Below, in pieces: positions 39,633-60,956 of a stretch of DNA of 64,000 bases (positions are counted from its first letter, which is position 1; each line of letters starts with the position of its first letter). Source of the stretch: Strigamia acuminata (Eukaryota; Arthropoda; Chilopoda; Geophilomorpha; Linotaeniidae). The stretch is from NCBI GenBank assembly GCA_949358305.1, contig OX442321.1, positions 5,977,605 to 6,041,604 of the forward strand. The letters are read 5' to 3'. The notes beneath the pieces were generated by a model, which ran no database searches, was not told the DNA's origin, and saw nothing but the letters and a program-made list of their open reading frames with translations. Both the position numbers and the translations under genes were made by a program.

Positions 39633-40085
39633 TTAATTAAAAACAACATAAAACTTTATTTCAGGTCCCACACTCCAACTAACGTCACTCGTTAATTCCA
39701 GCGTTTTGCGAACCCGATCGTAAAAAATTCCATAGTGTCGTGTCCCCTTCACATACAGCAAAACTCTTTTCAATGCGTTCATGTGCATCTCCGTCGGACA
39801 CGTCGATAAAAAACTCACCACATAGGCCAAGTCCGGTCTTGTCCCCAACATCAGGTACATCAGCGAACCCATCATGTCCTGGTATGCAGCACAGTCCACT
39901 CTTTTGGATTGCTTTCAAGCATCTAGATCTTGATCTCTTGGCATGGGATTCATCTCGGCTGCGCCGTTTTCCATTCCATACCTCTTAATGTGCTCGGGAT
40001 TGCCTGCTCTATTTGGTGATCAAATAAAACCGTTCACTGACACCGTAAAGTGGCTTTCGCAAAAAAGAAGCGACTTCTCCTCTTA
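39633..40085 (-). pseudogene. Ty1/copia polyprotein remnant (RT C-terminal region)
   Basis: Minus-strand translation gives three blocks in the right order for copia pol. First is LRKPLYG (about 40039-40059), corresponding to the LxKALYGLKQ motif. Next is PEHIKRYGMENG (about 39980-40010), the kRFgMe motif. Last is YQDMMGSLMYL...TRPDLAYVVSFLS...HMNALKRVLLYVKGTRHYGI (39690-39890), the conserved stretch leading to RNase H. The first block is in a different frame, the YVDD catalytic region between the first two is deleted, and a TGA interrupts the frame just before YQDMMGS. It is therefore a dead, internally deleted copy with no LTRs found nearby. In intact elements this protein reverse-transcribes the element RNA. 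Confidence 0.85.
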
Positions 40086-44483: not shown

Positions 44484-44915
44484 CAGGGGCGGATACAGGA
44501 GGGAGACATAACAACCACCATCTTGAGCAATGAAAAAATTCATTTTTTGGACCAAAAATTTATTTTTAGGCTCAAGAATTTATTTTTAGGCTCAAGAATT
44601 CATTTTTAGGCTCAAAAATGCATTTTTTAGCTCAAAAATGCATTTTTTAGCTCAAAAATGCATTTTTTAGCTCAAAAATTCATTTATAAACTCAAAAATT
44701 CATTTTTAGACTCAAAAATTCGTTTTTAAGCTCAAAAATTCATTTATAAGCTCAAAAATTCATTTATAAGCTCAAAACTTCATTTTTAGATTCAAAAATT
44801 CGTTTTTAGGCTCAAAAATTCGTTTTTAAGCTCAAAAATTCATTTTTAAGCACAAAAATTCATTTTCAGGTTCAAAAATTTATTTTTAGGCCAAAATAAA
44901 CCATTTTAGACCAAA
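44484..44915. mobile_element. hAT-like end followed by a 20-bp minisatellite
   Basis: The sequence begins CAGGGGCGGATACAGGAGGG, a common hAT terminus. From about 44530 it runs through some nineteen copies of a 20-bp unit (CTCAAAAATTCATTTTTAGG and variants with TGCATTTTTT). I could not find the complementary right end, so the element may be truncated or its end too diverged to see. The array itself is certain; the link to a transposon is inferred. Confidence 0.6.
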
Positions 44916-45689
44916 GAATCTAACTTCTCTGAGTAAAAAATTGAACCAAAACAGCCACTCCATTGTATGTTTTCTAGGTGTGCCCTTGCAGCTTAAAGTG
45001 GCTTACAGAATGGTGTTCATATCGGAAATGATGGAATGTCAAGTGAACTCAAGCTTCCGTATGGTATTGAAAAGGAAACATGCCTTTTTCCAAGTTAGGC
45101 AAAATTCCTACATGGCAAAATGTTGCGTGAAATAATGTGTGGCTGAATTGCGGTAACAGGTAAAAGCATGGATATTTATTCCGGAGAATGTCCACAAAAA
45201 GACTGCCAGAATTGGATATTCACACAGCATGAATATTACGAACAAAAGCATCACATCGCATTTAGATAGATGCGATGTTTAATATATACAGTATATAGAT
45301 GCGATGTTAAATCGATCATCCGTGCTACTGGAGATACAGTGCATGACAAAACTTCGCATAAATGATTAAAAAGTAAACAATTTTCAAAATACATCCAAAC
45401 TAACAATAGACTTCCATTTTAATCATGCTGAAATATTGTTACAATAAGTACAAGAGTGATATCTTGCAATGCCATGTTATTTTTCCCCTGGCGGCAGCTT
45501 TTTTCTTCATTTGGTTACAAATAAACATGAAGACATTTCTGCTCATCGTTGATTGGTTGTAAAGCCGAAAGAGTACAGTACTCTTAGTAACGACTAAGCT
45601 AGCATTGCATTTGCACTGAAAACTGGAGAAACCACAGTTAAAGGTTAGTGCACATGTACTTGCCCTAGGAACGCCGCCTTAAATCTACT
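44916..45689. other. Non-coding block
   Basis: No gene is recognised. The word TAGATGCGATGTT recurs around 45265-45310. Confidence 0.4.
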
Positions 45690-45775
45690 CGTATGTCGCC
45701 CATCCAAGTACTAACCAGGCTCCAATGCTGCTTAACTTCTGTGTTCAAATGGAAACAGGTGATCAGCTTGGTAAG
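45690..45775 (-). pseudogene. 5S rRNA-derived sequence (pseudogene or 5S-type SINE head)
   Basis: On the minus strand the core reads GAAGTTAAGCAGCATTGGAG then CCTGGTTAGTACTTGGATGG and GCGAC. This matches the A-box/intermediate-element/C-box internal promoter region of eukaryotic 5S rRNA closely. Upstream, TACCAAGCTGATCACC and TTGAACACAGAAG align to the 5S 5-prime half with more differences. The last roughly 25-30 nucleotides of 5S (GGGAATACCG-like helix) are missing: after GCGACAT the sequence becomes unrelated. So this is a truncated, diverged copy. It may be a dispersed 5S pseudogene or the head of a 5S-derived SINE; the window shows no A-rich tail or LINE-like tail that would decide. Confidence 0.75.
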
Positions 45776-47253
45776 CCGTTCCCATCCATATCACTTCTCC
45801 CGTGTTTAAAGAGGCCGCACAACATTTTAAACAAATTAACATTTAAATTAAACCAACATCAGGATTTTGTTAATGTCTGCCAAGTCTTACCTCCAGTCCA
45901 AGTCCACCATGTTTACTCTCTGAGATGGATTAGAAGGCAGTGTGATTTGGATGTAAGGACAAAACCATTTCTGTGCATTTTAAGCCATTGAATTTAATTC
46001 ATTTTAAACTTTTTGACCTAACTGTCGTCTTCAGGCAGTTTAAGTCTATTGCCAACAGTAATGGGATAAAAATGGCTGCAAAGCCCTGAAGTAGACCCAG
46101 AAGCTCAATTTCTGTGTCCTTAAACATGGGTAGTTTGAATTAATGTTATTTTTAACATATTTACTTGAGAAAACAATTCAGCAGGCTTATTTACCATTTG
46201 TTTATCTTTTATTGTGGATTTTAATTGCTAACTAAATTCAGCACTTGACATTAATGGCAAAACCAATTACATTTACATCCCTAATTTATAGACAGTCAAC
46301 AGTTTATTACATCCCATAAAAATCCATTTGTTTCACCAACTGTAAGGTAAGTTTTTGTTTTATTTATAAAAAATAAGCCATTTTGTGAGGTACTAAAGTG
46401 TAAATAGTAAATAAAAACCAATTTATAAACAAACAAGGGCACTAGGACTATGGGGAAATTTAGAATCAACCATTTTCATCAATATTTATAATTAACCTGC
46501 AATAAAAACTAATTAATTTCTGGCAAAGCTCTCTCTTGATCCATTGGAAATCCAAGACACTACTTAAAGCCGACTGGATCTGCGTGTGCAAATGATCCCA
46601 GAAATAATTTTTTAAGCAATAAATATATATTTTTTTCTTTTAAAAATATATACATTTTCTTTTTTAATTAAAAAAATTTTACCATAAAAAAAAAATTTGT
46701 TTTTCTCAAACTATTCACATTATAGAGAAAAAAAGTTTCTCGAATTTTCTACTACTGTAAATGATGTTTCCAAAAGGTCAATTGACTACCAAATTAAATT
46801 GATACAATTTGAATTTTAAACCACACTTAAAGGCGATCCTGTGCTACAAACTACCGAGCATAAAAACGAACCAATTCTGTATTTTACAGTCGATTTTTTC
46901 TGCAATTCTACTTTTTCCACTGCAATAGACAAAAATATTGATAAACATACCAAAAAAATTGAAATATTTCTTTTCTAAATTTTTTTTAAAGAAATACCTA
47001 CATGGTACATACAATAAAATTTAATTAAATTTGGCAAATATAATTCCATGACAACACAATAAATAAACGCTTATTCAAAGCACATGTTCCAATGCCTGTG
47101 GCAACTGAACAAATTCAAATTGAAGAACCTTGTAAAGAAAATTCAAATTTAAAACCAAATGAAGACAGCCAACAGGCAATGCAACAATACAGACAAACAA
47201 GACACACGATAATTTATTAAAATTTTATACTAATGATAAAAACTTATAATATA
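45776..47253. other. Non-coding block
   Basis: Unique AT-rich DNA; no gene is seen. Confidence 0.4.
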
Positions 47254-48484: not shown

Positions 48485-48488
48485 ATTC

Positions 48489-49308
48489 TGTCGCGTCCTA
48501 CTTGGTATAGGTTTAAATAGCGCTAACGTGTAATACTTTACCTGTGATCAATTATGTAAATACCCAAATGAATACCAAATGTATGTAAATAAACAGGTAA
48601 TTTATTCACCAGGCTTTATGCCTTTAAAATACACTCAGTAATAATTCTAGAGTCGACGTGGTCAGCGTCGAACAAAGGATTTCTCAAGATGGCGTCGTCG
48701 ATTCCGCGTGGTCGGCGGAACAAAGGCGGCGTCTCGAGTTGTCGTTAATTCGTCACGGATTCGTCTTCACGGACGCGGTGGAATGCTCTTTCGAGTCTTC
48801 TATCCGTGCCTGTTGTCTAGGGTTTGTTTAGCGTCGCAGAGGCCTCGTCTAGGAACTTTGGGGTTCCCTACAAAGCACTCGGACACTTACTTCGGCGAAT
48901 AATCGTCTGGGCGATTATTCTGGGTGATTTCACAAGGGCTATTCTCGTGCTTTCGCAGGAATAGCTCGCAAGTGACTTCGTGAGAGTTACAGTTTGCACT
49001 TTACTCAGCGATCCTCGATCAATCCTAACTTGTAGTTGAAGTTGGCCTGACGGTGAGGTAGTTGCTGTGTTCTTGGTGTCGTTTGTGTAAGTTCTGTCTT
49101 TAGGCGGGAAACACAGCCTTTTATGCAGTGGGGTGAAGGGCCGGCGATCAACCAATGGGGGCTGACCACCAGCCGCTTCCTCCCCCTCGGGGCACACACC
49201 TGCCATGGGGAGGTGGAGCCAACTCGGGGGGGAACGACTCTTTAATCATAGTGACTCATAGGACAAGTATCCGCCCTGGGGGGACACTTATCCAACTGGG
49301 TCACCACA
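48489..49308 (-). repeat. 3-prime LTR (820 bp)
   Basis: In element orientation it runs TGTGGTGACCC...GCGACA, i.e. TG...CA ends. The copy at 60133-60952 has the same length and sequence as far as I can read. A minus-strand AATAAA at 48601-48606 is the likely poly(A) signal for element transcripts. Confidence 0.96.
48601..48606 (-). promoter_or_regulatory. Polyadenylation signal AATAAA in the 3-prime LTR
   Basis: AATAAA on the minus strand inside the 3-prime LTR, followed by T-rich sequence, is well placed to end the genomic RNA roughly 500 nt after the predicted start position within the LTR. Confidence 0.55.
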
Positions 49309-49320
49309 CGTCCCTCCTCC
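49309..49320 (-). other. Polypurine tract
   Basis: GGAGGAGGGACG on the minus strand abuts the TG start of the 3-prime LTR, the expected site for plus-strand priming. It lies 35 bp after the stop codon of the third gene. Confidence 0.85.
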
Positions 49321-49355
49321 AGCTTCGATCTCGGATCGGAGCGATCTCAATTTTC

Positions 49356-52142
49356 TCATCGCTCTCCTCTGCGAAGAGCCGGCAGCACTCCTCTGCATGG
49401 GCGGAGGATCACGGGTGGCACTGCCGGTGGCGGCGGTGGTAAATCCGGGGGCAGAGAGGTTGTCAGATCCGCAGGATTTTGTCGCTCGTTGATGAAGTAC
49501 TGCGGGTGACTGCCGGCTGGCTCGCCAACCAACCCCGTACGCTCATGGATCCAAATCCGGGTAGACGCGGGGAATCGATCGGGGACGAGTCGGATCCTTC
49601 GCGACTCGGCGCTCGATCCGGGTTTCCTGTGGGCCCGTAGGATACGGCGATGGAAGACGGCGTCCATGGTGGATCGGGCTTCTCTGTTTAGCCATTTGAG
49701 GATTGATTCGCCGTGATCGTCGGAGTCAATGATGCGTTGTCGCGTGAACTCCGACATCTGAAGGAAGGGGTATTCCACTCCCAGCCTCAAATAAAGCTGC
49801 GCTGCTGGGGGCGGCGGAGGCGATGGTGGGAGCGGAATCTCCATTGGGCTCTCCAACGGTGGCGTAGCCGGCTCTGCAGAGAGAGCGGCCAGCCCTGCCG
49901 CTGGTGGTGAAGGAGAGGGCAGCGGAGGAGTTCGGGGTCCTCGCTTGGAACGCTTCGGAATCAATATGGGTCGATTCGCGTGTCGCTTCTCCTTCGGGAA
50001 TACCGGCTTTGGGGTCGGTATGTATGGTTGGACCGCCGCCTCTGGGGGGGCGGTCTCGATGGCCTGTGGAAGGCTCGCCGCCGTTCCCGGTATCTCCGGA
50101 ACCTCCCGAATTGTTCGCAACAAGGAAGGGTGGACTCCGGGGTTCCGGTAGCGGAATGCTAACGAACGCATCTTTGAAAACTGTAGGCCTGGGTTTTCCG
50201 TATTTCTGGCCAGGTCGAAGCGCAGCGAGGCGGGCTCAGGAGTCCATCCGGCCCATACCTGGTACAACGCCCGAGGAAGGTGAACTCCCTCACGGTCGAC
50301 GATTGTCCAGGCCGCCATAGCTTGCCGACTGTCCAAGAAGACGCCCAGGGATAGCAGCTGGGCCAGTACGTTCGTCACAGCCAAATTCAAACTGCTCCGA
50401 TGGCAGGGGTGAGCGCGGTCCGGATTGTCACTGAATTGTTGTGACAACGTCCGCATCTGTTCGATCGCCCAGTTGATGTGGTGAGTTTGGGCGGCGTCGG
50501 CCTGTCGTATGGCCAACTCGGCAATCGCGGGGTTCTCGTATTCGGCCAGATATTCTTGTAACTCGCTGAGTGGGGGATAGGCCGCTTCACGCCGGCATCT
50601 GGCGTCCATCTCCCGCTGCGCGTACCACTCGGCGTTGCGATGAGGATGGTACACTCGTGGCGTCGGGGGTGACGGTGGACGGCCCATCCCTGGTAGGTCG
50701 TCGTATCTGACCCGTTTGGGAGTTGGATCTCCCACCGGAATCATCCGGGGAGGGGTCCACGTGGTCACTGCTGGGTTTGTACCCTCGAGGAGTGGCGGCC
50801 ATCGCGATTGCACCTGTGGGGGCACAAGCGCGGTGGGCACAGCCGGTGTTGAGCCCGACGGCCGGTTGGCCGCGTATCCTCGGAAGGCGTTCTTCAATGC
50901 CATGGCCAGATCTTGTTTCGTGACCGGTCCATCCTTGTCCGACTCTTCTTGGGATATTTGTTCTTCCGTCAATTCTCCCAAATCAATCTCTGCCTGGAGC
51001 CTGGACGGCCCAGCCGCGGATCCGAGACTTCGGGGTTCGGACCTTTTTGCGGCGGCCATCTCTCGCTCTTTCTCCAATCCTTTCGCGATCAGAGACCGCG
51101 CACGCGTCTTCTGTCGTACTTTACGCTTCCGATTCCTCCTGGTGTTGGCTGCGACGGATCTTCGTTGGACCGTCCTCTGGGGGACGTCCGTCGGGGAATC
51201 AGGTCTCTGGTGTGTTGAGACGGTTCGTCGCGACGAGGATTGATCTGACGACTGTGTGGTAATCGCCATAAACAACGAGGATCTTTTCTTTCCTCGATCT
51301 TGGTGTGTCTCGGTCCTCGCAGCCCAGTGGGCGGAAGATTCGACCGTTCGCTCAGCCCGCGCGTCGTCTGGCGAGGCAGGCTCGAGCGTTACTACTCGGC
51401 GACACTCCGAGCGCACGACAACTCGAGTTCGGGAACTGGAGCTGCTCGAGCGGCTGCGGTAGTCGCGACTCGTTGACGGGCCGGCCTCTGTTGGGGAGAC
51501 GGCCTGTCTTCTTCGTGCGGGTCCGCGTGGGGCGGACTCCGCCGGACGCTTCGATCTTCTGTGATGGCGGCGACTTCCCAGGATACCAGCGTGGTATAAC
51601 TGCCACATCTCAGACTGCGTGGCCGTAAAATTCGCCGGTGGTATCCATCTGGGTGTCAAATGGTCTTCTTCGATGTCGCGAAGCCATCTACGGATTTCTT
51701 CGGGGGAGAAACCGTTTCTCTCGAGAACTCGGGTTACTCCGTGAGTCTCGGTGCGCTTTAAGCGTTCGATCTCGTCGTCCACTATTTTCTGGCGGGCTGC
51801 CAAGGTCGGGGCCTCGCTCCACCTGTGGGAGGTGTGCAGCTCGGCCACCGTGCCTGGGTAAGCCTCTTCCAGGTACCCGGAGTAAACGGGGCTCGGCGGA
51901 TCCGCATCGGGTGGGATCCGCGGCCCCACTCGCTCCCTCATCTCCTTCGTCATGCACTCGACCAGCGTTTTCGATCGCTCGAATTTTTCCTCGAGGGTCC
52001 TGGAGTACATCAATCGGATTTTCCAGGCGCTGGTCTCTGCAGGATAGGCCTGCCGCAGGTAAATCGGCAGGGCTCCGCGAAAGATGTTGTTGGCGGTTGA
52101 CACCGTCGAAGGCAGGGCGTCCCACGATTCTAGCGGGTCGAC
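49356..52142 (-). CDS. Third gene, main exon: Arg/Ser- and Pro-rich protein of unknown function in the env position
   Basis: The frame is open for 928 codons from the acceptor TTATTCAG|GTCGAC; in-frame TGA lies just upstream and no ATG is nearby, so splicing supplies the start. The 560-nt intron is 52143-52702, and with the first exon the product is about 967 residues. Numbering from 52103, residues 1-175 look folded and mainly helical, with two YLxxAYP motifs (residues 15-21 and 77-83). Residues 176-235 are Arg/Ser-rich (SRSSSSSSRTR). A basic NLS-like cluster TRRNRKRKVRQKTRAR is at 321-336. A second ordered part spans about 490-670. Pro-rich tracts lie at 694-765 and 884-900. I see no signal peptide, furin site, fusion peptide or membrane segment, so it is not a normal Env. 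I do not recognise a family. It could be an accessory, RNA-binding or nuclear factor, a diverged Gag-like duplication, or a captured gene. Confidence 0.8.
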   Translation of the reverse strand, partial: VDPLESWDALPSTVSTANNIFRGALPIYLRQAYPAETSAWKIRLMYSRTLEEKFERSKTLVECMTKEMRERVGPRIPPDADPPSPVYSGYLEEAYPGTVAELHTSHRWSEAPTLAARQKIVDDEIERLKRTETHGVTRVLERNGFSPEEIRRWLRDIEEDHLTPRWIPPANFTATQSEMWQLYHAGILGSRRHHRRSKRPAESAPRGPARRRQAVSPTEAGPSTSRDYRSRSSSSSSRTRVVVRSECRRVVTLEPASPDDARAERTVESSAHWAARTETHQDRGKKRSSLFMAITTQSSDQSSSRRTVSTHQRPDSPTDVPQRTVQRRSVAANTRRNRKRKVRQKTRARSLIAKGLEKEREMAAAKRSEPRSLGSAAGPSRLQAEIDLGELTEEQISQEESDKDGPVTKQDLAMALKNAFRGYAANRPSGSTPAVPTALVPPQVQSRWPPLLEGTNPAVTTWTPPRMIPVGDPTPKRVRYDDLPGMGRPPSPPTPRVYHPHRNAEWYAQREMDARCRREAAYPPLSELQEYLAEYENPAIAELAIRQADAAQTHHINWAIEQMRTLSQQFSDNPDRAHPCHRSSLNLAVTNVLAQLLSLGVFLDSRQAMAAWTIVDREGVHLPRALYQVWAGWTPEPASLRFDLARNTENPGLQFSKMRSLAFRYRNPGVHPSLLRTIREVPEIPGTAASLPQAIETAPPEAAVQPYIPTPKPVFPKEKRHANRPILIPKRSKRGPRTPPLPSPSPPAAGLAALSAEPATPPLESPMEIPLPPSPPPPPAAQLYLRLGVEYPFLQMSEFTRQRIIDSDDHGESILKWLNREARSTMDAVFHRRILRAHRKPGSSAESRRIRLVPDRFPASTRIWIHERTGLVGEPAGSHPQYFINERQNPADLTTSLPPDLPPPPPAVPPVILRPCRGVLPALRRGER

Positions 52143-52702
52143 CTGAATAATTTTAGATCACAAGATTAATATAATAAATCCCAGTTTAACGATGGGGATC
52201 AGAAATATGCTCAAGATCGACGGTGGCAGCAACTCCTTTCTTTTGTTGCGGCCGTCGGTCTTATTTTCTTGTTTCGCAGTTCTGCGATGATCTCCGCCGT
52301 CGTAGCGCTGATCCAACACTACCTTTGAACTCAGGTGATCCGCTTTTTAGGAAGGGGTCGCAGGCAAAACCGATCGTTAAATTCTTAATATTACGTTAAA
52401 CTTTTTATTTTAACTCTAATCGTATTTTAATTTATTACGATGTTTAATTTTAAAAGAAAGAAAACCTTTAGTTTTGGTTTTGGTTTGCCACGACGCCATT
52501 CCGCGAACACTTCCTTTGTTCTAGTTTTTTGGCGGCCTTGACTCCGAGGTGAATCTGGGTCCACTCTCGGGTTTTTAGCCAGCCTTAAATCAATAATAAA
52601 ACAGAAAGAAATATATCAGTCACAAGTCACGCTCCAATCTGGGTTGGATGCAACAGATTCAAAGAATTATGTGATTTCTCTGGGGAAATCACACTAATTT
52701 AC

Positions 52703-52819
52703 CTGCAACGGCGGTTGTTCGTCCCAATTCTCATCGTCTTCTGCATTTACGATTAGGCCGTCGCTCTCGTCTCTCGACGATGCGCTCGGCTCTAATCGTG
52801 GGTTGCGTCGATCGGCCAT
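52703..52819 (-). CDS. Third gene, predicted first coding exon (39 codons)
   Basis: An ATG at 52817-52819 in good context (GAA ATG G) opens a 39-codon frame. It is acidic towards its end (NAEDDENWDEQ) and finishes at CAG|GTAAAT, a near-consensus splice donor at 52702-52703. Two codons later the unspliced frame hits TAG, so without splicing only a 41-residue peptide would be made. The exon ends in phase 0, matching the acceptor at 52142-52143. Any upstream non-coding exon or promoter could not be identified. It may be spliced from the LTR-initiated RNA, in which case a further donor near the gag leader would be expected. Confidence 0.68.
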
Positions 52820-53199
52820 TTCAATTTAGGAAAATGAAGTTTTGTTTGAGAGGTCTTTGTCTTTCTCTTTGGGGGAGAAGCAAAAACACGTCTCGTCGTG
52901 TTAAAAACAGTCGGAAACTGGGCCTATCGACGCTGAGAATTGTGGGTCTCGAACGCGTCTCGTATTTTGCGAGATCCGCCGTGCTGGCAATGACGCTACG
53001 GGGTCGACCGCGTGGTTTCATTGTCACGTGGTCGCCCGATACGTCATAACTTCTCGTCTGTTAGTGGTGACTGCGACAATTCGTTGCGAAGTTTGGACTT
53101 AGCCAAATTTTCGCGTTTCAACATGTGCAGCAGCTCTCGTAAGTAAATCTTTTTATTTTACAAGGCCTCCGCTCCATGTTATCACATTTTCTTTTATTT
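52820..53199 (-). other. Spacer between pol and the third gene
   Basis: About 380 bp without a convincing frame in element orientation. It is GC-richer and CpG-rich, includes a CACGTG E-box near 53024, and could hold an internal promoter or an upstream non-coding exon. I see no decisive signal. Confidence 0.4.
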
Positions 53200-56100
53200 T
53201 TAGTTCTTCCCCACGACTTTGCCGTCCCGAATGAACGGATTATTGCTTCGTCGTGGTCGAAGGTTGATTTTCGACGTGCTCGTAGATCGTGACTCTACTT
53301 GCTCGTTCATCTCCGATGTGTTGGCATTTTTCTCATTATTAATTTTTTTATTTTCCATTTCAGAAGTACATTCTTCTGCTTCCTCCCTCTCCGAAATTGC
53401 TTGCTCCGGCTGTGCTGGAGCCTCGTCGGCCGGAGATTCGGCGTCGAAGAATTCATCCTCGTCCTCCGCTATATTTTCAGCTTCATTTGTTTTTTGGAAC
53501 GTGTCGACCACGGTGCCCCCTTGGCCGCTGTGTGTCTGACCTTCCAGCCAGATTTCTTGGGGAAACTCTGGCAGATATGGCCTTAAATCTCGGCCATGTA
53601 TCGACTGAAAATTTTTGTTGTCCTCTAAGCGGCGTAGTTGGTATGCGTTGCCGCCGTGTTCGGCCACAATTACATAGGGACCGTCCCTCTTGTCGGCTAA
53701 ACCTGCGGCGATGCCCCTCGCTGCATTGGACAACGTGTGTGCCTCCTTCCACACTAGATCATTCACTTTAAAGTTCGCGAAAGCGAGATCGCCTTCTTTA
53801 TCTGCGATTCTTTCTCTCATGTTGAAAATATGCGCCATCATATGCTGGTATGTGTCGGATATAGTCTGTTCCAACCGGCACACGTACTCGTGTGGGCTCG
53901 ATGGGTCTAATACGTTAACAGCTTCGGCAACGCGTGGGTCCCATGGCATCCTTAATTCGCGGGCGAAGTTGAGGTACGCCGGTGAGAATTCGCGTGTTCT
54001 TGACACGGTTGAGCGAATGCTGAAAGCGATTTCTCGCAGGTATTCGTCCCATCGATTGTGAATGTCGGTGAATACTGTCAGCGCATATTTTATATCTTTA
54101 TTTAATCTCTCGACTGGGTTTGTCTGAGGATTATATGTGGAGGTGTTCGATGCATCCATTTTAAATTTCCTACAGAAGTCCTTACATATTCTTGATCGGA
54201 ATTGGGGGCCGTTATCCGAAATGAGTTTTCTGGGAAACCCAAATCGCATTGCCACGTCGTAAAGGCACTCGACTATGTTTTCAGCCGAGGGCTTCGCGAG
54301 GGCGTACAGCTCCGGCCATCGGGTGGCCACGTCCATAATTACGAGAATATACATGTTCTTGTTTCCCGTTGTGGGCTTGGGGCCCATCAAGTCTATGCTT
54401 AAGCAGTCAAACGGTGCGTAGGGTCCGAGAGACATGGCGTTTCTGGCTACTTTATCTCGCGGTCTGCATGCTTGGCACCGGGGGCAGTGTCGGATAAATT
54501 TCGTTATCTTTTGCCGCGCGCCCGGCCAGAAGAAAAGTTGCTTTACTCGATAAAGGGTTCTCGCTATGCCGGAATGGCTGGCGAGCGGGTGTCCGTGCAT
54601 CAGCCACAACAGTCGGTTGTGCAGTGATGCCGGTACGACCACTTTCACCGAGTTTCCCGCTCCACTGAGGTCATCTTGAAATGTCGGGTGGTATTTTACC
54701 AGGAGTTCATCATCTATGAGGTAGCTTGTTGCTTCTTTGACGAACTGTTTCCGGCGGTGTGGGTTTGTCATCCCTTCCGGAAATTCGCCGTTCAGCAAAT
54801 ATTGTGTTATAATTTGACATTTTGTGTCTGCTGCCTGGTGTTCGACGAACTCACGTCTCGTGGGTGGAGCATATTGCGTTTTTTCTTCAATTTTTGCTGT
54901 GAAGGCGCGTAGTAGTGTTTTGTGGGTTTCTCCGGGGGGCGGAGGTTGAATTGCGGACGTTGAATCGCTCGTCCCAGCTGGCTGGTACGTTCGAGTCCAA
55001 AAACCACAAAACGTTCTATCTTCGGGCTCCATCACCGGCAGTTCGTTTGCTTTTCGTAAGCGCCATATTCTGCGTGGAGTTGGGCAGTACAAGAGGTGGG
55101 TGTCGTCCTCGCCGTCGTCGTCTGGTCCCTGGGGGTCAGAGGCTGGGGCTCTTGAGAGGGCGTCGGCCACATGATTGTACTTCCCGGGGCGGTACGTAAT
55201 TGTTATATCGCACGCCATTAACTCCAGTTGCCATCTTGCGAGTCGGCCGGAAGGTTCCTTGAGCTTCATCAACCAGCTTAGTGCCTGGTGATCTGTCTGA
55301 ACCTCGAAGTTCGTGTACTCCAGATAGTCGCGAAATTTTCGAACTGCCCAAATTACGGCTAGGCATTCTAGTTCCGTTGCCGTGTAATTTTTCTCCGCGC
55401 CCTGTATTTTCCTGCTTATAAACATACAGGGTACTTCTTGCGAGATTCCGTTGTACACGTGGGTCTGCAGAAGGGCTGCACCCAGTCCGATTTTACTCGC
55501 GTCGGTGTGCAACACGAACGGTCGGTTTAGGTCCGGCAATGGCATCTTTTCGACGTCAGCCAGCATTTGCTTGATAGTGCTAAATGCGGCCTCGCACTGG
55601 ACCGTCCACTCAAACTCTTTATCCGTTCGTAAGAGATCCGTTATAGGCGCGGCCACCTCAGCCAGACCAGAGAGTAGTCGGCCGAAGAAATTGACCATGC
55701 CCATGAATCTTTGGACACCTTTTATATCTTCGGGGGCGGGGAATCCGTTTATTGCTTTGACCTTTTCGGGGTCAATCGCGATTCCCTCGACTCCTATTCG
55801 ATATCCTAGGAAGGCAAGCTCTTTTCTGCAAAACTTGCTCTTCCCTGGATGGATGTGGAGTCCCGCCTTGGCTAGGCGAGAGACCACTCTGTCGATGTGG
55901 TCTATATGCTCTTCGAATGTGTCCGACGTTATTATTATGTCGTCGAGATACGCCCACACGAAGTCGTGAAGCATATCTCCCAACACGCTTTCGATCAATT
56001 TCTGGAACGTGCTCGGGGCGTTTACAAGCCCGAACGGCATCACGTTGAACATTAATCTTCCTATCGGGGAGTAGAAAGCCGTTTTTAGTTTGTCTTCTGG

Positions 56101-57342
56101 TTTTAGCTCCACTTGCCAATACCCCTTTGACAGATCCATCGTGGTTACCCACTTGAACGGGCTCAGTTCCCGGAGGATCGAGTCTATAGACGGCATCTGA
56201 ATCGGGTCTATAACTGTTATCGCATTCAGGGGGCGATAATCAATGCATAGTCGAGGCTCCGAGCCTGGACGCATTACCAGGACGATCCGCATCGCGTATT
56301 CGCCCAGCGCTTGAGTTACTATGCCCTTGTCGAGCATGTCTTGGCACATCTGCGTCACAATGTCTCTTTTCTGGGGGTTCATCCCCTTGTAAGGCACTCG
56401 AATCGGCTTGTCTGTGGTTAAGACTATTTCGTGGGTTGCTTCCGTCGTTCGACCAGGTGTCTTGGTCAGAATTCTTTCATGTTTTCGAAGCACTCGCCTT
56501 AGTAGCGATGCCTCGTTAACACGCAGTGCTGCCTCCTCGACCAGTGTGTCCACGACGTTACTCCTCTGTAATTCCAGAGTGAAGGCTGCGAAATCGTAAT
56601 CTTGGACGAATTTTCGCAATCCTCTTCCGTATTCCTCTTTGTCCTTGGCTTCGTCCAGTAATTTTTGGGGAACTACGGGGACTGGCCGTTCTCCCTCGGG
56701 ACTTATCCAGTTCCATGAACGGGTTATCGGGTTTGGCTGAATTTTCAGTTTTGCCATGATATCCATCCCTAAGAGGAATACTTTGTCGTGGGATGGCAAG
56801 ACTATGAAGGGGTGGGACAGGTTCCCCCCCTTCCAGTCGATCATGATGCGAACTACGCCCCTCGGCTTGACGTAGCCGTTGGCGGTGAGCAATTCTACGT
56901 TCGCGTTCACTTGTGCCACCTTTTTTTCAATATCCAAGTCCTTTACTATATCTTCGGATATGAATGAACGATCTGCTCCTGAATCCAGCAGACCGAACAA
57001 TTTTTGGTTTTCGATCTCCACTGGCAGCATACACAGAGTTTCGCAATGTGTTTTCGTGACATTGCAGTGAAAAACGCGTAATGTTTGGGGCTCAACCTCC
57101 AGATTGAACGGGAGGTCCGTCCAATCTATGTCGACCTCCGGCTTCGTTCTCACTTGCATACTTGTCAGCGTCACTGTTTCTTCCTTCTTCGGAATGGTCT
57201 GCATGCGATCTTTGATCTGTGCTTCTGCCAAGGCATGACCTGCGGGTCCAGTGTGATATTTCTTCTTTTTAATTTCCGCGGCTGGCGCAGACGAAGCTGA
57301 ATTTATTTCGGCGACGCCTGCGCTTGGGAGTTTTTTGCTAGA
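53200..57342 (-). CDS. pol: Pol polyprotein: protease, reverse transcriptase, RNase H, integrase
   Basis: Pol copies the RNA and integrates the DNA. It has no ATG near its start and is made by -1 frameshifting; the frame is open from 57342. Counting residues from 57231, the aspartic protease has DSGAD at 83-87. RT has TMDLSKGYWQ (catalytic D366) and YLDD at 428-431. RNase H carries D577, E620, D647 and D690. Integrase has an HHCC zinc finger (H879, H886, C916, C919) and the DDE triad D947, D1006 (DNGPQF) and E1041 (NPVERLNKD). A GPY-type module (DGPYVIV) and IHGRDLRPY follow near 1184-1220. The last roughly 100 residues are an acidic then basic tail without a recognised chromodomain. The order PR-RT-RH-IN is diagnostic of Ty3/gypsy. 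All catalytic residues are intact, which suggests a functional enzyme set. The stop is followed by about 380 nt before the next exon. Confidence 0.95.
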   Translation of the reverse strand, partial: SSKKLPSAGVAEINSASSAPAAEIKKKKYHTGPAGHALAEAQIKDRMQTIPKKEETVTLTSMQVRTKPEVDIDWTDLPFNLEVEPQTLRVFHCNVTKTHCETLCMLPVEIENQKLFGLLDSGADRSFISEDIVKDLDIEKKVAQVNANVELLTANGYVKPRGVVRIMIDWKGGNLSHPFIVLPSHDKVFLLGMDIMAKLKIQPNPITRSWNWISPEGERPVPVVPQKLLDEAKDKEEYGRGLRKFVQDYDFAAFTLELQRSNVVDTLVEEAALRVNEASLLRRVLRKHERILTKTPGRTTEATHEIVLTTDKPIRVPYKGMNPQKRDIVTQMCQDMLDKGIVTQALGEYAMRIVLVMRPGSEPRLCIDYRPLNAITVIDPIQMPSIDSILRELSPFKWVTTMDLSKGYWQVELKPEDKLKTAFYSPIGRLMFNVMPFGLVNAPSTFQKLIESVLGDMLHDFVWAYLDDIIITSDTFEEHIDHIDRVVSRLAKAGLHIHPGKSKFCRKELAFLGYRIGVEGIAIDPEKVKAINGFPAPEDIKGVQRFMGMVNFFGRLLSGLAEVAAPITDLLRTDKEFEWTVQCEAAFSTIKQMLADVEKMPLPDLNRPFVLHTDASKIGLGAALLQTHVYNGISQEVPCMFISRKIQGAEKNYTATELECLAVIWAVRKFRDYLEYTNFEVQTDHQALSWLMKLKEPSGRLARWQLELMACDITITYRPGKYNHVADALSRAPASDPQGPDDDGEDDTHLLYCPTPRRIWRLRKANELPVMEPEDRTFCGFWTRTYQPAGTSDSTSAIQPPPPGETHKTLLRAFTAKIEEKTQYAPPTRREFVEHQAADTKCQIITQYLLNGEFPEGMTNPHRRKQFVKEATSYLIDDELLVKYHPTFQDDLSGAGNSVKVVVPASLHNRLLWLMHGHPLASHSGIARTLYRVKQLFFWPGARQKITKFIRHCPRCQACRPRDKVARNAMSLGPYAPFDCLSIDLMGPKPTTGNKNMYILVIMDVATRWPELYALAKPSAENIVECLYDVAMRFGFPRKLISDNGPQFRSRICKDFCRKFKMDASNTSTYNPQTNPVERLNKDIKYALTVFTDIHNRWDEYLREIAFSIRSTVSRTREFSPAYLNFARELRMPWDPRVAEAVNVLDPSSPHEYVCRLEQTISDTYQHMMAHIFNMRERIADKEGDLAFANFKVNDLVWKEAHTLSNAARGIAAGLADKRDGPYVIVAEHGGNAYQLRRLEDNKNFQSIHGRDLRPYLPEFPQEIWLEGQTHSGQGGTVVDTFQKTNEAENIAEDEDEFFDAESPADEAPAQPEQAISEREEAEECTSEMENKKINNEKNANTSEMNEQVESRSTSTSKINLRPRRSNNPFIRDGKVVGKN
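57285..57336 (-). promoter_or_regulatory. Programmed -1 ribosomal frameshift signal between gag and pol
   Basis: The minus strand has the slippery heptamer A AAA AAC (57330-57336), in the correct phase with gag codons GCA AAA AAC. A 6-nt spacer (TCCCAA) follows, then a 9-bp stem GCGCAGGCG / CGTCTGCGC (57315-57323 with 57285-57293, one G-U pair) enclosing a 21-nt loop that contains the gag TAA. The pol frame is exactly -1 relative to gag and is open from 57342, so slipping here yields Gag-Pol. A pseudoknot was not evident. Confidence 0.88.
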
Positions 57343-60038
57343 TTAGTATTTAACTCCATCATCATTTTCATCAAGGTTTGCATGATGCCTTTTTCTTTGA
57401 CGGTTTTTTCGCATTTGTCGGAGTAGTGACCGTATTCTCCGCAGCTGTAACATTTGATGTTACTTTTATCCCCTGTGGGAGTGAATCCCGGTTTTTTCGG
57501 GACGAAGGGCGTCGGGAATCGTCTTTTTCCTCCCAATGCCCCTCTCGCTTTTGTTGCCTGCACGTGTGCTCTGAATTGTGCGATTGCTAAGGCCCGGTGT
57601 GCATGGTGCAAATAGGGACCTTGATCGTCGCATCCCGTCGACAAGTTTTCGAGGTGCTCATTTAGGGCTTCCTCGTCGCTTGATGCTGGCTCCTCTTCTT
57701 TAGCCGTGGCGAGAGGTGTTGTCTCTTCGACTTTCTCCATCTGGGTGGAGTCCGTCGAGGTCACCTGCATCGCCGTTGCTGCCGGTGCTTTCTTTGGGGC
57801 AGCTATCGGGTTGGCTGGAAGAATACTGCCTGCTTTAGGCGTCAGCATTCGTCCGAAGGATGCTTCGGTGAGACTCATTATGCCGCTCAAATATTCACTT
57901 GGCCTCATTAATTTCTCTGAGGTCTTGTGACGTTCGGCGCTCGTCTGCAACCGTTTCTCGTGCGCGTCAGCTTCCTCCGGGGGCAGAGTGGCGTAATACC
58001 GCTGTTCTATTTCTAACGTGTTTGTTAGAAGATAGTTACTGACATCTTGGTAATCGCCAGTGCGGGGTGCACGCATGTCTAGCAGAATTCTTTGCGAGTG
58101 GGCCGATAATCCTCCGTAAAAGATCATCGTAAAACCAGCGGGGTTTATTTCGTACGGCGCTCTTGCAAACAGGAGTTTCGCTCGGGCGTCGTAGTCGGCT
58201 AATGTTTCTCCTGGGGCTTGTCGTAGACCCCGTAATTTGTTACTGATCTCGTCTGGAGTCTCGCCGTATCGGAGATCGAAACGGACGAGAAAATCGTCCC
58301 AGGTTGGGTTTTTCAGTCCCTGGTACCATTCTCGAGCTGACCCCGTAGTTAGCTCCACTAGCCCGTGGGTTAGCATGTCGGCGACGGTGGCTTTTGTCGC
58401 TTTCTTGATACGCATTACTTCGTCCAGGAAGCGGTCTCCGGCCTTCCACGAACCGTCAAATCGCGTTTGAATATAGTGTTGCCAGCGGATGTTACCCGTG
58501 GCTTCACTGCTTGGTTCGTTTCGTACGCCATATTTGCGCTTAACCCTCTCTCCAGCGCGATTATGTTCGTCGCCTGGATGGCCTAGATCGATTCCTTCTC
58601 TTCTGAAAGAGTTCAGCAGGGCTCGGCCTAGCTCAGACATTGTGTAATGTCGGCCAGATGAGTCCTGAAAGTTCCCTTCCTCTGAACGAGGGTTGGAGCT
58701 CCGGGAAGAGCGGTCTGAAGCATTCGGCCGGTTCGACCGGTGCCCATCGCTGCCTTCTTGACTCCTTCCTGTAGACGGTCGACTCGGATGGTCGTCGTCC
58801 GACGAATCGGAGGGCTCGGAGGGATCTCCTTGGGGGTGAAACCTCGGCCCTCTCGGTGGGGTCTCTCCGCCAGCCTTCTTCTGTTTCGAGCCTCCGGATG
58901 GCGGCGGCTCCCCTCCGTCGTTGTTCTCGTAAAAAGAATGCCATCTGTTTTCCTCGCTTTCGGGGCGTTCCCGATTTTTATTTGCGTTTTTCTTTTCGAG
59001 TAACGCGTCGATGGCTGCTCCCGTCTCGGATCTTTTTGAGGGGTGACGGTCCTTTGTTTTTGGGACCGACTCGTCTCTCTTTTGAGATTTCCCCCTTTTC
59101 GCCGTTTTTGCCGGCTTTGTTGCACCTTCTACTGTTGCGTTCCATTCTTTTCGAATTTTAGCTTCTCGTTCTTCCCTCATTTTTTGGACCAGTTTTTCTG
59201 TTCTCTCGGTGGTTCTTCTTTCGCGTTGCTCCCTTTCTTCCTCTTCCTTCCAGAGTTCTCGCCGCTCTGCGCTCAGTCTTCGTTGGCGATTAGTCGCTTC
59301 TTGTCTGGCTTCTTCGCGGGCCTTCTCTCTGGATTGGTGAAGTGCCCGGTTGGGGTCTGGCGCGAAACCTCCGGTGTCACTGGGCGTTACCTGGGGCATG
59401 GGCGTCTCCGCTGCTGGTCTTGCGACCGGCGTCGGGGCTTGTGCCGCGCAGATAGCGTCAGTGAGTAGAGTAATCGATTCCCAGACTGACGTTCCTACTG
59501 GAATGTCTATCATCGCTTTCAGTTGGGCAGCTTGCCGTGTCAACCGAATTAGGTGAGATACCTCGAAGGAAACAACCGCAGGACTCGCCGTAACTCGGGG
59601 GGTTATCGGGGTCCCGCCGTCGTTTTTTCGTGGGGTTTGCTCCACGGACGTCTGAGCCGTGGGTGGCGATGGGTTCGTGCCGACCGTGACCGTTATTTTC
59701 GGAGCTTCATTCGTCTCCTCGGTCATCAATATCGATACTCGTCCTGGCGATACGTCGCGAATTTCTTCTCGATTTTCTATGGCTTCCGGATCGGTATCCT
59801 CGAAGGGTTGCATATTCAAGGGAACCCGCTCTCGCTCTGGCCCGTCTAGGGCCGCGAGCGATGCAGCTTGCTCCTCTTTCTGCGCCTTCGCTCTCCTTTT
59901 ATTCGCTCGGGCTTTCGCCTTTGCGGACATTTCAGGGACGGGACCATCCGATCTCAGGTGGTAGTCGGAGGTCCTTTTTCCCTTCTCGGGCATTCTCTGC
60001 TCGGTTTCAGACGTGGATTGCTCGTCTTTGTCTGACAT
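57303..60038 (-). CDS. gag: Gag polyprotein of the Ty3/gypsy element
   Basis: Gag builds the virus-like particle that packages the element RNA. The 911-residue product begins at an ATG 72 nt after the primer binding site. Residues 1-515 are an unusually long, charged and probably disordered region, including a Glu/Arg-rich likely coiled coil (about 235-300) and Pro/Ser-rich stretches. Residues about 518-690 form the capsid-like retrotransposon Gag domain (WQHYIQTRF...REWYQGL...WDDFLVRFDLRYG...YDARAKLLF). A CCHC zinc knuckle CYSCGEYGHYSDKC is at 863-876 and would bind RNA. Most gypsy Gags are 300-500 residues, so the N-terminal extension is notable. Translation ends at TAA inside the loop of a frameshift stem. 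A -1 shift just before the stop fuses Gag to Pol. Confidence 0.93.
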   Translation of the reverse strand: MSDKDEQSTSETEQRMPEKGKRTSDYHLRSDGPVPEMSAKAKARANKRRAKAQKEEQAASLAALDGPERERVPLNMQPFEDTDPEAIENREEIRDVSPGRVSILMTEETNEAPKITVTVGTNPSPPTAQTSVEQTPRKNDGGTPITPRVTASPAVVSFEVSHLIRLTRQAAQLKAMIDIPVGTSVWESITLLTDAICAAQAPTPVARPAAETPMPQVTPSDTGGFAPDPNRALHQSREKAREEARQEATNRQRRLSAERRELWKEEEEREQRERRTTERTEKLVQKMREEREAKIRKEWNATVEGATKPAKTAKRGKSQKRDESVPKTKDRHPSKRSETGAAIDALLEKKNANKNRERPESEENRWHSFYENNDGGEPPPSGGSKQKKAGGETPPRGPRFHPQGDPSEPSDSSDDDHPSRPSTGRSQEGSDGHRSNRPNASDRSSRSSNPRSEEGNFQDSSGRHYTMSELGRALLNSFRREGIDLGHPGDEHNRAGERVKRKYGVRNEPSSEATGNIRWQHYIQTRFDGSWKAGDRFLDEVMRIKKATKATVADMLTHGLVELTTGSAREWYQGLKNPTWDDFLVRFDLRYGETPDEISNKLRGLRQAPGETLADYDARAKLLFARAPYEINPAGFTMIFYGGLSAHSQRILLDMRAPRTGDYQDVSNYLLTNTLEIEQRYYATLPPEEADAHEKRLQTSAERHKTSEKLMRPSEYLSGIMSLTEASFGRMLTPKAGSILPANPIAAPKKAPAATAMQVTSTDSTQMEKVEETTPLATAKEEEPASSDEEALNEHLENLSTGCDDQGPYLHHAHRALAIAQFRAHVQATKARGALGGKRRFPTPFVPKKPGFTPTGDKSNIKCYSCGEYGHYSDKCEKTVKEKGIMQTLMKMMMELNTNLAKNSQAQASPK

Positions 60039-60110
60039 TTTCTTTCGGTAATTCTACGATTTGGGTTATCTTATTGAGAGATCACAAGTTCAGATTTGAG
60101 ATTTATTTCT

Positions 60111-60130
60111 AAATCCCGGACAGGCCCCCA
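60111..60130 (-). other. Primer binding site, tRNA-Pro-like
   Basis: The minus strand reads TGGGGGCCTGTCCGGGATTT, starting two bases after the LTR. The complement ends in a discriminator C plus CCA and carries a normal T-arm (AAATCCCGG). This matches the 3-prime end of animal tRNA-Pro except for a CT/TC swap in the acceptor stem (18 of 20). First-strand synthesis would prime here. tRNA-Pro priming is uncommon among gypsy elements as I know them. Confidence 0.75.
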
Positions 60131-60132
60131 CG

Positions 60133-60952
60133 TGTCGCGTCCTACTTGGTATAGGTTTAAATAGCGCTAACGTGTAATACTTTACCTGTGATCAATTATG
60201 TAAATACCCAAATGAATACCAAATGTATGTAAATAAACAGGTAATTTATTCACCAGGCTTTATGCCTTTAAAATACACTCAGTAATAATTCTAGAGTCGA
60301 CGTGGTCAGCGTCGAACAAAGGATTTCTCAAGATGGCGTCGTCGATTCCGCGTGGTCGGCGGAACAAAGGCGGCGTCTCGAGTTGTCGTTAATTCGTCAC
60401 GGATTCGTCTTCACGGACGCGGTGGAATGCTCTTTCGAGTCTTCTATCCGTGCCTGTTGTCTAGGGTTTGTTTAGCGTCGCAGAGGCCTCGTCTAGGAAC
60501 TTTGGGGTTCCCTACAAAGCACTCGGACACTTACTTCGGCGAATAATCGTCTGGGCGATTATTCTGGGTGATTTCACAAGGGCTATTCTCGTGCTTTCGC
60601 AGGAATAGCTCGCAAGTGACTTCGTGAGAGTTACAGTTTGCACTTTACTCAGCGATCCTCGATCAATCCTAACTTGTAGTTGAAGTTGGCCTGACGGTGA
60701 GGTAGTTGCTGTGTTCTTGGTGTCGTTTGTGTAAGTTCTGTCTTTAGGCGGGAAACACAGCCTTTTATGCAGTGGGGTGAAGGGCCGGCGATCAACCAAT
60801 GGGGGCTGACCACCAGCCGCTTCCTCCCCCTCGGGGCACACACCTGCCATGGGGAGGTGGAGCCAACTCGGGGGGGAACGACTCTTTAATCATAGTGACT
60901 CATAGGACAAGTATCCGCCCTGGGGGGACACTTATCCAACTGGGTCACCACA
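60133..60952 (-). repeat. 5-prime LTR (820 bp)
   Basis: Identical partner of 48489-49308. In element orientation it supplies the promoter: an ATTGG (inverted CCAAT) box at 60796-60800 and a CATAAAAGG TATA-like box at 60761-60769. Transcription is expected to start some 25-30 bp downstream, near 60735. The LTR ends ...CGCGACA two bases before the primer binding site. Confidence 0.96.
60761..60769 (-). promoter_or_regulatory. TATA-like box in the 5-prime LTR
   Basis: CATAAAAGG on the minus strand, with an inverted CCAAT box about 30 bp upstream. This is the usual layout of an RNA polymerase II promoter inside U3. The start site itself cannot be seen. Confidence 0.6.
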
Positions 60953-60956
60953 ATTC

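Follow-up and report, generated by a model that had tools for sequence, protein, structure and literature searches.

Insect errantiviruses, which are gypsy elements with env, hold a third gene in the env slot, between pol and the 3′ long terminal repeat (LTR), and express it from spliced RNA. To our knowledge, few cases are known in which non-retroviral LTR elements keep and export their unspliced genomic RNA. CERV, encoded in the env slot of the Ty3/gypsy element Cer1 of C. elegans, is reported to be expressed from spliced RNA, nuclear and required for export of the unspliced genomic RNA (PMC10309623). The products reported for the third open reading frames (ORF3) of the bdelloid elements Juno, Vesta and TelKA include a GDSL esterase, a DEDDy exonuclease, short transmembrane proteins and one paramyxovirus-like Env (PMC5408684). 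Here we analysed a stretch of 64,000 nucleotides (nt) from Strigamia acuminata (GCA_949358305.1, OX442321.1, forward strand, 5,977,605–6,041,604; hereafter the window, to which all positions refer). It contains a complete-looking Ty3/gypsy-type LTR retrotransposon of 12.46 kb on the minus strand (60952–48489), apparently young and multi-copy, whose env slot holds a two-exon third gene. Selection and kept splice sites support this gene structure; its protein lacks convincing Env features, resembles no protein found and may help the element to handle its unspliced RNA.

Exon 1 (52703–52819, minus strand, as are all features of the element) comprises 39 codons with its own ATG at 52819 and ends at CAG|GTAAAT. 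It is followed by a predicted AT-rich intron of 560 nt in phase 0 (52143–52702; GTAAAT...TTATTCAG) and by exon 2 (49356–52142), with 928 codons (52142–49359) plus the stop. A first-pass annotation, made from the letters of the window alone, had proposed this 39-codon exon, 560-nt intron, 928-codon exon and phase-0 join, and its coordinates, lengths and phase proved correct. The stop-to-stop frame around exon 2 (52157–49356) spans 933 codons, 928 of them 3′ of the acceptor TTATTCAG|G, leaving only five codons between the upstream stop and the acceptor. An open frame by chance was rejected, since the longest stop-free run in 500 first-order Markov simulations of the region 49309–53199 averaged 200 codons and never exceeded 430, and since the frame is under selection. 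The GC content is 0.39 for the intron, 0.56 for exon 1 and 0.61 for exon 2.

The splice signals and the start codon are kept almost without change among 48 copies of the element. The exon 1 donor GT, the intron acceptor and the exon 1 ATG are present in 48/48 copies, the donor reading CAGGTAAAT in 47 and CAGGTAAAG in the remaining one; a stop codon within exon 1 was seen in a single copy (L051) of the first 27. The spacer between pol and the third gene (52820–53199) folds strongly and carries an acceptor-like AAAG ending at 52867, kept in 46/48 copies, and the 47 nt before exon 1 contain no ATG.

Selection was measured on an alignment of the window copy with 27 other copies, excluding from the counts L004, which is the window copy re-fetched; two subfamilies were defined by likeness to the window copy rather than by a tree. 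For exon 2, comparison of the window copy with 19 copies of the second subfamily gave a silent divergence (dS) of 0.12–0.24 and a ratio of replacement to silent divergence (dN/dS) of 0.09–0.14. When L041, omitted from that comparison for its broken flank, was included (20 copies), dN/dS was 0.119 overall, with 0.195 for the N-terminal part, 0.211 for the RS/basic segment, 0.140 for the Pro linker, 0.065 for the middle, 0.181 for the Pro-rich part, 0.048 for the C-terminal part and 0.007 for the tail. Within the second subfamily, 182 of 190 pairs had at least 15 silent differences, and these gave a median dN/dS of 0.093 (range 0.053–0.261). The copies were picked via protein hits and nearly all have 933-codon frames, which biases exon 2 towards an absence of indels; no such choice was made on exon 1, the spacer or the intron.

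Exon 1 showed 3 replacement and 6 silent variants in its ATG frame among the 48 copies (binomial P 0.0044, variants treated as independent). The ratio in this frame is 0.13, and reading exon 1 in either of the alternative frames gives 2.3 and 3.0. Likewise, exon 1 had no indels, where the rate in spacer and intron would predict 3.0 (P 0.05; 12 events in the 560 nt of the intron and 12 in the 380 nt of the spacer). This constraint is suggestive and not decisive alone, because the sample is small and ratios below 1 occur in the intron and spacer as well (0.44–0.55 in three of six frames). A further indication comes from codons 1–44 of exon 2, which precede its first methionine (codon 45) and show 6 replacement and 10 silent variants (P 0.0027). 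With these codons constrained and only five codons between the upstream stop and the acceptor, upstream coding sequence must be supplied.

Searches of the host genome (237.5 Mb) covered, for the whole gene, the best 49 of 2731 first-look candidates and, for a 107-residue segment, the best 150 of 1000, so that the copy numbers are minimum values and may miss copies that have diverged further. All of the best 49 whole-gene matches were 97–100% identical, 48 of them open over 933 codons and one over 922; the best 150 segment matches were all 96–100% identical, and their frames, in rows counted by eye, ran for 933 codons in 132 cases and 942 in one, with 17 shorter. The first-pass annotation had held that a decayed frame in sister copies would speak against it, and had named conservation and dN/dS of the frame as a check; no such decay appeared, the 933 codons being open in 132 of the best 150 copies, with an exon 2 dN/dS of about 0.1.

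An 18-letter pattern spanning the exon 1 donor (up to 1 mismatch) matched 162 genomic places, and its reversed control none. Spliced copies, sought with a pattern placing the end of exon 1 within 24 nt of the start of exon 2, were found at 0 places; in 28 copies checked, the first 12 letters of this junction pattern occur in 26 and 13 of its last 14 in 27, the final letter being unchecked. With 162 exon 1/intron borders kept and no spliced junction, the RNA that is reverse transcribed is unspliced at this intron. Hence, an element bearing it must solve the problem of retaining and exporting unspliced RNA.

Comparison of the window copy with the second subfamily further suggests that exon 2 has a composite history. 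Silent divergence is 0.17 over exon 2, rising to 0.38 in its C-terminal part, whereas the 3′ end of pol shows 0.033; the all-site difference is 0.3–2.4% in LTR windows and 0.3–4.0% in intron windows. The mosaic-looking stretch lies at 51257–49458, in contrast to near-identity in the LTR, over most of the intron and at the 3′ end of pol. For a strongly constrained protein with nearly identical neighbours, the pattern is most simply read as recombination with a lineage that had diverged. Such a lineage was not seen in this genome with the two degenerate patterns tried for a diverged sister family, which matched 1 place (L059) and 0 places.

The product of exon 2 comprises an N-terminal part, an RS/basic segment with a cluster resembling a nuclear localization signal (NLS), Pro linkers, a middle part and a conserved C-terminal part, the N-terminal and middle parts being predicted, at low confidence, to be helical. 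It is RS-, Arg- and Pro-rich, with 24 RS/SR and 19 SP/TP dipeptides, and residues 333–347 form a basic run that is NLS-like by motif only; exon 1 is acidic by its sequence, with a best 12-residue Kyte–Doolittle (KD) mean of −0.29. An acidic N-terminus, RS-rich segment, NLS-like cluster and Pro-rich tracts had also been noted in the first-pass annotation. Features of an Env (signal peptide, membrane anchor) were judged by hydropathy and motif scans rather than by trained predictors, and by simple hydropathy neither was found in exon 1 or exon 2. The earlier statement that signal peptide, membrane span and cleavage site are all lacking stands for the first, there being no hydrophobic start, and is mostly right for the second, exon 2 having one borderline hydrophobic segment at residues 585–603 (mean KD 1.75); as for the third, exon 2 contains four R-x-[KR]-R motifs. 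As an identity for the protein, Env was not supported by these features.

No relative was recognised by sequence. Pfam gave 0 families up to an E value of 1, and NCBIfam and PDB sequences gave 0, the N-terminal and middle parts finding no PDB sequence even at E 10; residues 1–205 matched 0 of 691 scored proteins at E 1. A relative was confirmed in IMG/VR neither for the third gene nor for pol, a single PHROGs match (E 0.25) was dismissed, and no paper among those listed in searches of the open-licence literature was recognisable as describing this gene. Neither an Env nor a host gene family thus turned up when relatives were sought, as the first-pass annotation had proposed, in Pfam, in NCBIfam, among PDB sequences and among the proteins scored. 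A fold search with open-frame residues 500–690 found nothing at E 0.001 in PDB or BFVD, the model being too weak to conclude from.

We tentatively favour a role in which the third-gene product acts in the nucleus to regulate the RNA of the element itself, by analogy with CERV and, more loosely, with Rev of human immunodeficiency virus 1 (HIV-1); we regard this as plausible rather than probable. It is suggested by a selected two-exon gene, by the unspliced copies and by the lack of convincing Env features or of another family, and also by the basic cluster, the RS/SR and SP/TP counts, the CERV precedent and the position of the lowest folding score. In a scan of 88 windows of 280 nt along the element (40 shuffles each), the lowest z, −6.70, fell over the 3′ part of the spacer and exon 1, with −5.02 for the whole intron and −4.70 for the whole spacer.

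Under this scheme, full-length RNA would start in the 5′ LTR, and part of it would be spliced from a donor-like site in U5 to the acceptor-like site before exon 1. The candidate donor of such a subgenomic RNA, CAGGTAAAG at 60180–60188, is present in 28/28 copies of the 3′ LTR, and together with the site at 52867 could remove the 5′ part of the RNA. Removal of the 560-nt intron alone leaves the 5′ end in place, so that it may be coupled to this 5′ loss; splicing across that intron is itself predicted from the selection that acts on both exons and from the kept splice sites. The RS/basic middle of the product and its many SP/TP sites suggest that it would enter the nucleus, and it would bind unspliced genomic RNA, perhaps via structured RNA in the spacer or intron. 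The bound RNA would then escape splicing, leave the nucleus, make Gag-Pol and be packaged. A broader proposal, that this arthropod gypsy lineage independently evolved a Rev/CERV-type system in which a large RS-rich nuclear protein from a doubly spliced RNA acts on a structured RNA that unspliced transcripts alone retain, and in which recombination has moved the third gene between lineages, is possible, though on the doubtful side.

Several observations weigh against a CERV-like role. Among 7990 scored proteins, out of 5.8 billion in a search that sees only proteins sharing 5-residue words, there was no match at E 0.001, and hence no similarity to CERV, whose presence in that set was unchecked. 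The pattern for a nuclear export signal (NES) used in the CERV report matched 0 times in exon 2, which also lacks a Cys cluster, its cysteines (63, 247, 516, 580 and 916) being scattered. AlphaFold2, with no relatives supplied, returned helices and no strands at low confidence (pLDDT 41 for the full-length model and 55 for that of the middle part). The U5 site matches 7/9 consensus letters, below the 8/9 cut applied to donor-like sites, and donor-like 9-mers matching at least 8/9 number three in sense and three in antisense, the U5 site not among them. Folding is strong along the whole element (mean z −2.61; 34/88 windows at or below −3; an LTR window at −6.48). Covariation analysis found 0 double changes in the spacer and intron structures, and single changes kept or broke pairs in a pattern (spacer 9/18, intron 14/10) similar to that of a coding control (7/12), the kept ones exceeding expectation no more than in that control; with no support from covariation, no function is claimed for the folding RNA. 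Strong folding is also predicted in the interior of pol, at 56052–55633 (z −5.75 and −5.44).

Among the other explanations, the best surviving one, which we nevertheless hold to be rather unlikely, is that the protein serves Gag or the integration complex as a non-enzymatic partner, coating RNA, aiding entry into the nucleus or tethering the complex to chromatin. The long basic/RS segment and the predicted helical parts would suit such a partner, and the C-terminal part and tail, as the most constrained regions (0.048 and 0.007), would fit a binding domain. Nevertheless, the exon 2 frame has no similarity to gag or pol beyond chance (best E 0.26, across a basic stretch), and a structural partner has no obvious need for its own spliced RNA.

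It is unlikely that the third gene is a captured host gene or a silencing suppressor directed, for example, at the PIWI-interacting RNA (piRNA) pathway. Non-Env third genes have been acquired elsewhere, as the bdelloid GDSL and DEDDy ORF3s illustrate (PMC5408684); here, no relative of the protein was found among those scored, and the degenerate patterns for divergent relatives gave only the 1 and 0 host places mentioned above. Host-genome searches fill with copies of the element, so that a distant host parent could be masked.

A very divergent Env, or a membrane or fusion factor replacing Env in cell-to-cell spread, appears more improbable still. The gene occupies the env slot, and the segment at 585–603 and the four R-x-[KR]-R motifs could be read in this way, as could a single N-glycosylation motif; moreover, Env-less spread through sORF2 is reported for 412-type elements (PMC11952523). 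Against this, the acidic exon 1 offers no hydrophobic start, the protein is RS-, Arg- and Pro-rich, and the hydrophobic stretch lies mostly within a predicted helix of a helical region (low confidence). Nor was an sORF2-like ATG frame of at least 25 codons with a maximum KD above 0.51 found in the leader and 5′ LTR (60000–60952), the spacer and intron (52100–53300) or the 3′ end (48489–49400), frames overlapping gag, pol or exon 2 being left out of the scan. Finally, that the long frame is real and exon 1 is not joined to it, with translation from codon 45 of exon 2 or by another route, would agree with the lack of a spliced genomic copy and is very improbable given the constraint on codons 1–44, the constraint on exon 1 in just the frame needed for an in-phase join, and the five codons from upstream stop to acceptor.

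The element around the third gene shows the TG...CA LTRs, short target-site duplication and pol domain order of Metaviridae (Ty3/gypsy). The LTRs (5′, 60133–60952; 3′, 48489–49308) are exact 820-nt repeats (820/820 identity), and ATTC flanks the element on both sides (48485–48488 and 60953–60956), so that the insertion looks recent. The 5′ LTR contains ATAAAA (TATA-like) at 60768 and AATAAA at 60250, read in the sequence, and the R-U5 region and leader (60767–60039), which separate the TATA-like box from the gag ATG by about 730 nt, contain no ATG. The primer site after the 5′ LTR presumably resembles that of tRNA-Pro, which is unconfirmed, a tRNA-gene pattern having matched 0 places. The gag frame (57303–60038) has 911 codons, a stop codon at 57305–57303 and one CCHC knuckle seen by eye. 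The pol open frame (53200–57342; 1380 codons) has Pfam protease, reverse transcriptase (RT), RNase H and integrase, in the gypsy order. Within the gag-pol overlap lies A AAA AAC (57336–57330), which we take to be a −1 frameshift heptamer and which would fit −1 frameshifting. Relatives of pol are 29–37% identical in the best 20 alignments, and identity reaches 46% where roughly half of the region searched is aligned; the best named ones come from many arthropods, plus fish, frog, algae and grass. In line with an arthropod host, the 54 matches listed in this genome for PF00379, an arthropod cuticle family, all exceed the family cut-off, and 14 control genomes gave none. Several other gypsy families (L009–L038) are present in the same genome, their pol frames open over long distances and their copies nearly identical to one another; their RT parts are just 35–44% or so identical to that of this element. 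The GC content in 2-kb windows is 0.47–0.61 over the element, against 0.29–0.44 elsewhere in the window, where a 5S rRNA-like match (45665–45784, minus strand, 50.4 bits), a tandem array of 20-nt AT-rich repeats (44534–44933) and a Copia-like pol fragment recognised by eye from its translation (39636–39914) were also noted.

Set beside known systems, the locus shares with insect errantiviruses the slot of the third gene, here without convincing Env features, a warning that third genes should not be named Env by position. Some bdelloid LTR elements likewise carry a non-Env ORF3 in that slot; in contrast to those, the third gene matched no GDSL or DEDDy domain in Pfam. Insect gypsy-type elements of the 412/MDG1 type resemble it in lacking Env and having an accessory protein, but their sORF2 is reported to be a short transmembrane protein, unlike the large, basic, Pro-rich product here (PMC11952523). 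The closest analogue by layout is CERV, this being a likeness of layout, not homology. In both, a large non-Env frame lies between pol and the 3′ LTR with a TTTCAG-like acceptor in front, is joined to upstream coding exons by splicing (as predicted here), contains an NLS-like cluster and has no homologue beyond its own lineage. They differ in that CERV has 517 residues, compared with 39 + 928, in that three of its exons share their frame with gag, whereas exon 1 here lies after pol with its own ATG, though further exons upstream of it may exist, and in that a Cys-rich loop, a candidate NES and a G-protein-like domain are reported for CERV (PMC10309623). With this precedent, the arrangement is less unprecedented than the first-pass annotation had implied, while its core, a selected, two-exon, non-Env third gene for which no relative was found, stands. 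Even with another function, a large, selected non-Env protein has been added to the env slot; should the role be CERV-like, an arthropod element would have gained Rev-like control by way of an unrelated protein, and a single genome offers at least 150 closely similar copies in which to study it.

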